A model generated the notes under the pieces. The model was not told where the DNA came from. It searched no databases and worked only from the letters and a program-made list of their open reading frames with translations. Below, in pieces: positions 19,193-21,427 of a stretch of DNA of 33,384 bases (position 1 is the stretch's first letter; the number at the start of each line of letters is the position of its first letter). The DNA lies in NCBI GenBank assembly GCA_028693815.1, contig JAQUUP010000011.1, forward strand, positions 8,141-41,524, read 5' to 3'. Made by a program: the position numbers and the translations under genes. The stretch is from Candidatus Omnitrophota bacterium. GTDB lineage: Bacteria; Omnitrophota; Gorgyraeia; Zapsychrales; Aceulaceae.

Positions 19193-19319
19193 GTTTCGCG
19201 GAGAGCCTTATAAAGATATTAGAGCTTCTTTCTTTACAGCTAAAGAGAAATCTGGTATAGTTAATTTTCGTTTCCACGATTTGAGGCATATTTTTGCTTC
19301 TCATCTAATAGATTTATAG
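19182..19319 (+). pseudogene. C-terminal catalytic fragment of a tyrosine recombinase/integrase
   Basis: A 45-codon frame beginning ATG at 19182 reads GEPYKDIRASFFTA, then RFHDLRHIFASHLIDL and a stop at 19317-19319. HDLRH holds the conserved His and Arg of the recombinase active site (HxxR box), and the upstream phrase matches the usual linker of phage integrases. The segment after the HxxR box, including the second His box and the nucleophilic Tyr, is missing, as is everything before. It is a remnant and cannot be active. Confidence 0.8.
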
Positions 19320-19451
19320 ATTTTGGAGAAATGGCAGGCTGATTTATCTTGGAATGAGATAAATGAAATCAGCACGCGCATTTCAATAAATTTTTGGAGA
19401 AATGGCAGGCAAAAATTTCCTTTAGTTATTCTGATTTCTTAAGAGAAATTT

Positions 19452-19497
19452 GCACGCACATTTTACCTTAGTGTAAGAATTTAGGGAGAAATGGCAG
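19452..19497 (+). repeat. 46-bp direct repeat (copy 1) of the tRNA-Ser upstream region
   Basis: This segment is identical to 19584-19629. It runs from GCACGCACATTTTACC through GTGTAAGAATTTAGG to the tRNA bases GGAGAAATGGCAG. Copy 2 continues into the real tRNA; copy 1 diverges after the 13th tRNA base. The promoter-proximal region and tRNA start were thus duplicated together. Confidence 0.9.
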
Positions 19498-19586
19498 GCC
19501 AATTTTCTAAAGTATTTATTTAATATTTAGCAGAAATGGCAGGCCAATTTTCTAAAGTATTTATTTAATATTTAGCAGAAATGGCA
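19487..19586 (+). repeat. 45-bp perfect tandem repeat, 2.2 copies
   Basis: The stretch repeats exactly with a 45-base period over 100 bases. Each unit contains AAATGGCAGGCCAATTTTCT and ATTTATTTAATATTTAGCAG. Absence of divergence points to recent duplication, for example by replication slippage or recombination. Confidence 0.9.
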
Positions 19587-19616
19587 CGCACATTTTACCT
19601 TAGTGTAAGAATTTAG

Positions 19617-19704
19617 GGAGAAATGGCAGAGTGGTTGAATGCGGCGGTCTTGAAAACCGTTGAGGTTAACGCCTCCGAGGGTTCGAATCCTTCTTTCTCC
19701 GCCA
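19617..19704 (+). tRNA. tRNA-Ser (anticodon UGA)
   Basis: The 88-base gene folds as a class II tRNA: acceptor stem GGAGAAA/TTTCTCC with discriminator G and encoded CCA; D-arm with GAGTGGTTGAATG; anticodon stem GCGGT/ACCGT with loop CTTGAAA (anticodon TGA at 19651-19653); a long variable arm (GAGGTTAACGCCTC); and a T-loop TTCGAAT. It reads UCA and, by wobble, other UCN serine codons. An identifiable terminator follows. Confidence 0.97.
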
Positions 19705-19768: not shown

Positions 19769-20071
19769 GGAGCATGCTTTTAAGCCTCCGTGCTTAAAAG
19801 TACTCCGCCAATAAAGTATTAATGAACTCTGAACCCTTTGAGCGAAGTCTATTTCTTTTTAAGGAGCTTCGACACGCTTTGCGTGCGAAGTAAATTCGCG
19901 CAGCAACTTGCGAGCATTGCATTTCACAAGATGCGCGCTCATTTAAGCCTCCGTGCTTAAAAGTACTCCGCCAATAAAGTATTAATAAAACTCCGAAACT
20001 CTTTGCGTGCGGAGTAAATTCGCATAAGGTAACTTATGAGCACTTTGTTATATAAGATTGCGTGCTCATTT
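19769..20071 (+). repeat. Downstream cluster of covarying hairpin repeats
   Basis: This non-coding stretch holds a 45-base exact direct repeat (19779-19823 and 19942-19986, starting TTTAAGCCTCCGTGC) and two 84-base structured units (about 19861-19944 and 19988-20071). Each unit has hairpin 1 (CTTCG...CGAAG at 19867-19890; CTCCG...CGGAG at 19991-20014), hairpin 2 (CGCA...TGCG; CATAAG-GTAA-CTTATG at 20023-20038) and hairpin 3 (GAGC...GCTC at 19912-19940; GAGCAC...GTGCTC at 20038-20067), ending in (G/T)GCG(C/T)GCTCATTT. Paired positions differ in both arms together, so base-pairing seems to be selected. Another hairpin, GGAG...CTCC, lies at 19769-19806. Nothing coding is seen from 19705 to 20128. 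Confidence 0.75.
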
Positions 20072-20090
20072 ATGTTAAATTCTAATAACT

Positions 20091-20128: not shown

Positions 20129-21427
20129 ATGAAATCTCAAGAACACAATCATTCAAAACATAATTATGCTCGAGCATTGAGTTATTCGAATGCTATTTCC
20201 GAAATTTTTTATGCGGTGATGCGTAAGAGATATCCTTTGGATCGAGAAATAAAGAATTATTTTAGAAAACATAAAGAGTGTGGATCTAAAGATCGTTTTT
20301 TGATTACGGAATCGTTGTTTAGTTTATTTCGCTGGTATGGATGGGTGAAAGGGAAGCTGCCAAATAATCAGCCTGAAAATCCTTTAAAGTCAAAAAAGTT
20401 TTGTGTAGGCTTATCAGCGGTTTTATGGTTGGATAATCAGCCGTTTGTTCAATTTATGGAAATATTGTATGATGCCGCGGGAATTGATGCTACGTGGCTT
20501 AAAAGTTCACCAGATTTAATTGAGGATAAAATAAAGGGTTTAAGTCATTTTTTTAAGATTAGAAAATGCGATGTTCTTGATTTGGTTCCTGAGTGGTTTA
20601 GAAAAGAAATTAAAGACGATGATTTAAGGAGTATGATTGAGCCATTCCAAAAGCGTCCGCCTATTTGGATACGGGTGCAGAATAACGCAGAAGAAATAGT
20701 ATTCAAAGAATTGAAGAATCTAGGGATTGATTTGGCTCAGCATGAAGGAATTTCAAATGCTTTTAAGTTGTCGACGAGTAAACTTAATCTTAAAGATATT
20801 GAATCATATCAAAATGGTTTATTTGAAATTCAAGATTTAGCAAGTCAATGTTTGGGGCTTGCCTGTGGAGTTTCTGCAGATCAATCTTGGTGGGATGTTT
20901 GTGCTGGTGCAGGAGGAAAGAGCCTTTTGTTGGCAGATCAAATGAAAGGGCAGGGTAAAATTGTTGCGACAGGTAATCGCGAAGAGATAAAAAAGCGAGC
21001 AACGAGAGCTAATTTTAAGAATATTTGTATTACAGATTTAGATAAAATTGTTTTGAGTCAGCATAGTTTTGATGGCGTGCTTGTTGATGCGCCGTGTTCT
21101 TGCACAGGGACTTGGCGTCGAAATCCTGATTTACGATGGACTTCTTTACGCAATGTTTGCGAGCAATCGGCTTGTGTTCAGAAGGAAATTTTGGAATTTG
21201 CTTTTAAAAAAGTAAAGCCTGGGGGTGTTTTGGTTTATGCGACATGTAGTCTAAGTGTTCAGGAAAATGAAGACATTGTCAGTCATTTCTTAAAGACGTC
21301 TCCTGAGTTTGCATTGGAAGATTTTTTTCATCCTCTTACAGGAAAGCCCACAGGCGGCATGATGCACGTTAAGTTTGATTTGGATGACTGTGACGCAACA
21401 TTTGCCGCACGTTTCCGTAGAAAATAG
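20129..21427 (+). CDS. rsmB: RsmB/Sun/NOP2-family RNA (cytosine-5) methyltransferase
   Basis: The 432-residue protein, near the usual RsmB length, has an N-terminal helical NusB-like region (~15-150) and a C-terminal Rossmann methyltransferase. Visible motifs: SAM site DVCAGAGGKS (256-265), motif IV DAPCSCTGTWRRNPDLRW with Cys323 (release of product) and motif VI YATCSLSVQENE with the nucleophilic Cys373. By homology it methylates 16S rRNA at C967; the substrate is inferred, and other family members target different cytosines. The sugar-contact region of motif II looks degenerate (VATGNREEIKKRA instead of an acidic residue), which is odd but not disabling. It is the first of three genes running in the same direction. 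Confidence 0.88.
   Translation: MKSQEHNHSKHNYARALSYSNAISEIFYAVMRKRYPLDREIKNYFRKHKECGSKDRFLITESLFSLFRWYGWVKGKLPNNQPENPLKSKKFCVGLSAVLWLDNQPFVQFMEILYDAAGIDATWLKSSPDLIEDKIKGLSHFFKIRKCDVLDLVPEWFRKEIKDDDLRSMIEPFQKRPPIWIRVQNNAEEIVFKELKNLGIDLAQHEGISNAFKLSTSKLNLKDIESYQNGLFEIQDLASQCLGLACGVSADQSWWDVCAGAGGKSLLLADQMKGQGKIVATGNREEIKKRATRANFKNICITDLDKIVLSQHSFDGVLVDAPCSCTGTWRRNPDLRWTSLRNVCEQSACVQKEILEFAFKKVKPGGVLVYATCSLSVQENEDIVSHFLKTSPEFALEDFFHPLTGKPTGGMMHVKFDLDDCDATFAARFRRK

Follow-up and report, generated by a model that had tools for sequence, protein, structure and literature searches.

A dispersed family of DNA-type hairpins in Candidatus Aceula and other Omnitrophota

Downstream of a tRNA-Ser gene of Candidatus Aceula, within the 33,384-nt stretch of DNA analysed here (the window), two similar hairpin-forming units stand in tandem, and where they differ, their paired positions differ together. 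The initial annotation read this either as a structured RNA or as a DNA hairpin recognised by a mobile-element enzyme, and the locus therefore raises the question of which nucleic acid the pairing serves and what, if anything, moves it.

The tandem units and their surroundings

The two units are real and homologous, with a spacing of 124 bases, but their inner pairing and their boundaries, first placed at about 19861-19944 and 19988-20071, needed correction, the boundaries to 19867-19945 and 19991-20072 (Table 1). Each consists of a 24-nt hairpin (hairpin I) immediately followed by a core hairpin of 55 nt in unit A or 58 nt in unit B. The compensatory changes described for hairpin I (CTTCG/CGAAG in A versus CTCCG/CGGAG in B) are present, whereas the two inner hairpins proposed for the remainder (CGCA/TGCG versus CATAAG/CTTATG, and GAGCAT/GCGCTC versus GAGCAC/GTGCTC) give way, when pairing is considered across the family, to one long stem. 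The inner hairpins are alternatives of local extent, most evident in copy B, which scores lower than copy A (48.5 bits versus 58.3). The 426-nt region folds much better than its dinucleotide shuffles (z = -5.8 as DNA and -6.9 as RNA). At the gathering score the sole Rfam match was tRNA-Ser, and the units had no meaningful match even at E ≤ 10.

Table 1. Coordinates of the units, their flanks and their neighbours in the window
Feature	Position	Strand	Basis
tRNA-Ser (TGA), upstream neighbour	19617..19704	+	ARAGORN; Rfam tRNA
Flank repeat copy 1, 48 nt, preceding a unit	19779..19826	+	repeat D2
Third hairpin I, probable remnant (CTCTGAACCCTTTGAGCGAAG), fused to terminator-like sequence	19827..19847	+	inferred from repeat D5 and sequence
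Unit A hairpin I, CTTCG-A-CACGC-TTT-GCGTG-CGAAG, contiguous with the core	19867..19890	+	sequence; repeat D6
Unit A core hairpin, TAAATTCG...CTCATTTA	19891..19945	+	covariance model R1, 58.3 bits, E 2.9e-8
Flank repeat copy 2, 98% identity, separating units A and B	19942..19989	+	repeat D2
Unit B hairpin I, CTCCG...CGGAG	19991..20014	+	sequence; repeat D6
Unit B core hairpin, weaker member	20015..20072	+	covariance model R1, 48.5 bits, E 1.7e-6
ORF, 432 aa, downstream neighbour	20129..21427	+	ORF listing

The direct repeat said to precede each unit as 45 exact bases does exist, but is better described as 48 nt at 98% identity. Its first part, through ...GTACTCCG, occurs in Candidatus Aceula lacicola too, and the 48-nt repeat is thus a duplicated host flank. 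Neither window unit is present in Ca. A. lacicola, which has a different copy of the element directly before the ATG of the orthologue of the downstream gene, a putative RsmB-like rRNA methyltransferase gene. That copy is absent from the window and from Ca. A. meridiana, in which the downstream gene lies in another context.

The region upstream is also rich in repeats. A remnant of a tyrosine recombinase C-terminus (RFHDLRHIFASHLIDL*) lies at 19267-19320, upstream of tRNA-Ser, which suggests that an element targeting the tRNA was integrated here long ago. Over 19320-19630, several copies of the tRNA-Ser 5' end (GGAGAAATGGCAG) alternate with another hairpin-like repeat (GGCAGGC...GCACGC), and 19487-19576 holds a perfect tandem repeat of 45 bp.

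A dispersed family and the covariation of its stems

Two copies cannot by themselves prove selection on base pairing, as had been proposed from the units alone, and the argument rests instead on the family to which they belong. The exact pattern TAAATTCG-N-CTCATTTA has 46 matches in the genome that contains the window, compared with one for the reversed control pattern, and a covariance model finds at least 69 copies there (E ≤ 0.001). With the covariance model, at least one copy was found in 24 of 35 relatives, among them Ca. A. meridiana (29 copies) and Ca. A. lacicola (35), and at least 243 of 384 Omnitrophota genomes were positive in a scan that used stricter filters and scored a capped number of candidates, such that the counts are lower bounds. 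Dozens of copies per genome are present in many Omnitrophota.

A scan of named genomes gave mostly Omnitrophota, together with some genomes labelled Deltaproteobacteria, Nitrospirae/Thermodesulfovibrionia, Bacteroidetes and Patescibacteria; outside Omnitrophota, several matches have good scores and can fold, others being weak or perhaps due to chance, and isolated cases may be MAG contamination. At three loci labelled Deltaproteobacteria (L195, L234 and L236), the element is reversed and lies just after a gene ending ...EVYDKAHPR; at L195 this position is occupied by an xerC-like gene, followed by hslV, and the stop codon of the xerC-like gene overlaps the element end. Viral contigs contained no exact match to CGGGATAAATTCG-N25..50-CTCATTTA.

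The pattern matches in the window's own genome all share a core of the form TAAAT-TC-G(variable stem)C-TC-ATTTA, preceded by the short hairpin I, which in most copies ends exactly at the core junction. From the outside inwards, the core comprises TAAAT/ATTTA, a 2x2 TC/TC internal loop, GNNN/NNNC, a 5' bulge of 2-4 nt and a stem of ~10 bp; in terms of helices, P1 is NNAAT/ATTNN, P2 has 4 bp, and P3, of ~10 bp, contains a nearly invariant TT/AA. The single form is the commoner one, and there is also an inverted-pair form in which TAAATGAG...CGAATTTA and TAAATTCG...CTCATTTA are separated by a hairpin-I-like stem. Among 36 sequences from the window's own genome, pairing is maintained in 95% of cells, compared with only 24-46% for control structures slid along the alignment, and two-sided changes occur at 11 of 19 pairs (114 cells), the outer base pairs among those that covary. 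The covarying homologues whose absence would have spoken against the original proposal are therefore present, and the covariation is that of a dispersed family.

In an RNA helix, G-U pairs on the transcribed strand are tolerated and A-C mismatches are not, while a DNA helix favours neither. In 207 distinct copies, the cells included 3746 Watson-Crick pairs, 42 G-U and 67 A-C, and the own-genome set similarly held 9 G-U versus 20 A-C. The stems of tRNAs from the same loci, used as a control, gave 1273 Watson-Crick pairs, 70 G-U and no A-C; the ARAGORN stem drawing may under-report A-C in this control, which leaves the element's missing G-U excess unaffected. As G-U is no commoner than A-C in the element, its structure is apparently kept folded as DNA rather than as RNA. 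Of the two readings first offered, the comparison thus does not support a structured RNA, which may still be a secondary role, since many copies occupy 5' leaders.

Stems that are nearly all Watson-Crick, one-sided intermediates being few, would also be expected if template switching during replication kept the arms complementary by mutation only, with neither an enzyme nor a function, and the tandem duplications of a unit with its flank, seen in the window and at locus L080, would be in keeping with such a process. We nevertheless regard it as improbable, because the TC/TC mismatch and 5' bulge have escaped correction throughout the phylum, conservation of the ends NNAATTCG/CTCATTNN extends to nearly every copy examined, and template switching gives no moves to new sites.

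Placement, turnover and copies inside genes

Most copies in the window's own genome lie directly before a ribosome site or start codon and point the same way as the gene. Among 219 copies, the ending ATTT-ATG occurs in 26. A Shine-Dalgarno-like motif occurs in the last stem bases of 8 of these 26 copies versus 7 of the other 193 (p = 5e-5), an enrichment from which we infer that some copies have probably been adjusted by selection to the translation of their site. Such placement is what a cis-regulatory RNA leader would show, in which hairpins at the 5' end of an mRNA control translation and sometimes hide the Shine-Dalgarno sequence in the core stem. We consider this explanation unlikely: the G-U excess seen in tRNAs is missing, the genes downstream of the copies are unrelated to each other, the element is missing before most of the same genes in sister species, and phylum-wide, 108 of 154 callable copies are co-oriented with the downstream gene but 46 face the other way, with some copies inside coding genes.

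Over 400 kb of the largest contig of Ca. A. meridiana (C32, L115-L134), one strand holds 329 of 353 ORFs, and the same stretch has a GC skew near -0.15, an extreme replication-strand bias of genes. Because nearly all A. meridiana genes follow one replication strand, a strand preference of insertion is inseparable from a gene-related one.

To follow individual sites, copies of the window's own genome were compared with ~0.8 Mb of Ca. A. meridiana and a large part of Ca. A. lacicola, absence being called by a pattern match in the aligned gap, with inspection by eye for some sites. By this criterion the orthologous site is called empty for 20 of 24 testable copies in Ca. A. lacicola; in Ca. A. 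meridiana the figure is 13 of 19. At the cleanest empty sites (L044, L083 and L050), hairpin I and core have been gained or lost between colinear flanks. Other sites are common to sister species (the rubrerythrin locus L080, L053 and L079); these could reflect long retention, and we count them against mobility. Flanking repeats of 17-18 bp are found at L044 and L080 only, and target-site duplication overall is little above control; that there is no consistent duplication across copies likewise counts against mobility. The median nearest-neighbour identity of copies is 0.85 within one genome versus 0.84 across genera, in pools of unequal size, a similarity unlike that of a recent transposon burst and a further, not decisive, point on the same side.

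About 2% of copies lie inside ORFs. Three in the window's own genome are in frame inside coding genes (L048, L076 and L057), as is L228. L048 and L076 lie in a single pair of paralogous genes, and the relatives of this pair are without the insert. The L057 insert is common to Ca. A. lacicola, whose counterpart contains a further hairpin-I module, 51 nt long, precisely where hairpin I meets the core. We also note that in-frame inserts (L048, L057, L076, L228 and L348) fall in a paralogous protein family (...FIVDSGDTGLKGTALKNESEKLIKYFLAALTIPEDNLWVNLSP...) that is expanded in Aceula.

The putative mover and related systems

Dispersal, presence or absence in sister species, copies inside genes, inverted pairs and the missing G-U excess all accord with the other reading first offered, a DNA hairpin for a mobile-element enzyme. 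We think it likely that the window units are tandem copies of a non-autonomous mobile DNA hairpin of REP/RPE/MITE-like kind, moved by a putative structure-recognising recombinase. The element would be ~80-110 bp long, a variable hairpin I followed by a core hairpin with conserved ends (NNAAT-TC-...-TC-ATTNN) and an asymmetric bulge. Single-stranded DNA, for example during replication, would fold, and a structure-specific recombinase, supplied in trans, would probably act on the core. Copies are placed mainly between genes, immediately ahead of a Shine-Dalgarno sequence or start codon and in the direction of the gene, and now and then they lie within a gene, in frame; sister species have gained or lost them, and a copy can be duplicated in tandem together with its flank, as the window shows.

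Folded single strands that contain a mismatch and a bulge are recognised by IS200/IS605-type transposases and by integron integrases. The folded strand, mismatch and bulge of the element fit an enzyme of this type, yet neither kind tracks the family. REP elements mobilised by a RAYT (Y1, IS200/IS605-type) transposase would account for small imperfect hairpins of this form, and single and inverted-pair forms with no consistent target duplication also fit single-strand transposition. Among relatives, however, Y1 genes show no correlation with copy number: Ca. A. meridiana and Ca. A. lacicola have no Y1 matches despite their 29 and 35 copies, a relative (G018) has 12 Y1 matches and no copies, and no element lies within ~1.5 kb of the 31 Y1 loci examined. 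The family lacks the GTAG tag of REP elements: GTAG stands in 10 of 218 flanks on the left and in 8 of 218 on the right. We thus judge REP/RAYT mobilisation very unlikely, and a resident RAYT is strongly disfavoured as the mover. The resident gene (L085, C5:8000-12000; 224 aa, Y1/RAYT-like) sits instead among a distinct repeat, GAATTCAACCTACGAGGTTGAACGCGG, present in at least five places, which is a separate REP family.

Other candidates fared no better. Integron integrase (TIGR02249) does not track the family, being above cut-off only in a relative without element copies (G033:C45:3695 and G033:C26:43325), nor does reverse transcriptase (RVT_1), which is absent from all three Aceula genomes; the only recurrent genes beside copies are housekeeping genes. 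No recombinase was found that tracks the family, which counts against mobility; the enzyme may have been lost, may act from elsewhere or may be of another type.

The closest described kinds of element are RPE, REP and MITE, none of which is clearly matched in all of the defining features tested. Rickettsia palindromic elements are small dispersed palindromes, found between genes and in frame within them, with no dedicated transposase known (PMC10969869, PMC3733652). The present family resembles them in dispersal and in both locations, but its sequence and structure are different, its core structure is conserved over the phylum and beyond, the fraction inside ORFs compares with nearly half in RPE, and the RPE CGTC end tag is found in 14 of 218 left flanks and no right flank. 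REP/REPIN sequences are likewise imperfect, extragenic, non-autonomous DNA hairpins that occur singly or as inverted pairs, but the element here is longer, a two-hairpin unit, with no Y1 gene association. MITEs (Correia, RUP, BOX) share the short, non-autonomous character, the proximity to genes and inverted-pair forms with complementary ends (TAAATGAG...CTCATTTA); most copies here are nevertheless single-ended, without terminal inverted repeats in this commoner form, and have covarying outer base pairs and no fixed target duplication. Integron attC sites would work in a similar way, with a variable stem, conserved boxes and bases that are extra-helical or unpaired at the centre, in DNA apparently recognised in its folded state, but there are no cassette arrays here, and the attC boxes RYYYAAC/GTTRRRY occur in 0 of 218 copies.

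A literature search, with most subscription papers outside its reach, found no description of this repeat, and the hairpin family is apparently undescribed in Rfam and in the literature searched. More tentatively, and with more doubt than belief, we raise the possibility of phylum-wide, structure-recognised mobile DNA hairpins driven by a type of recombinase not previously connected with repeats of this sort and repeatedly co-opted at start codons or as in-frame peptides; at start codons, the core stem would supply the Shine-Dalgarno sequence and the element end the ATG.

In the Omnitrophota, for which a 2023 survey (PMC10066038) reported no cultured member, the family represents a widely conserved element, present in multiple copies, that shapes the starts of genes and in some cases the sequence of proteins. 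The comparison of G-U with A-C offers a cheap general test that separates DNA hairpins from RNA structures. DNA-type covariation combined with rapid gain and loss and no recognisable transposase makes the identity of the mover a testable question, namely which enzyme moves these hairpins in cells without a Y1 transposase, an integron integrase or a reverse transcriptase.
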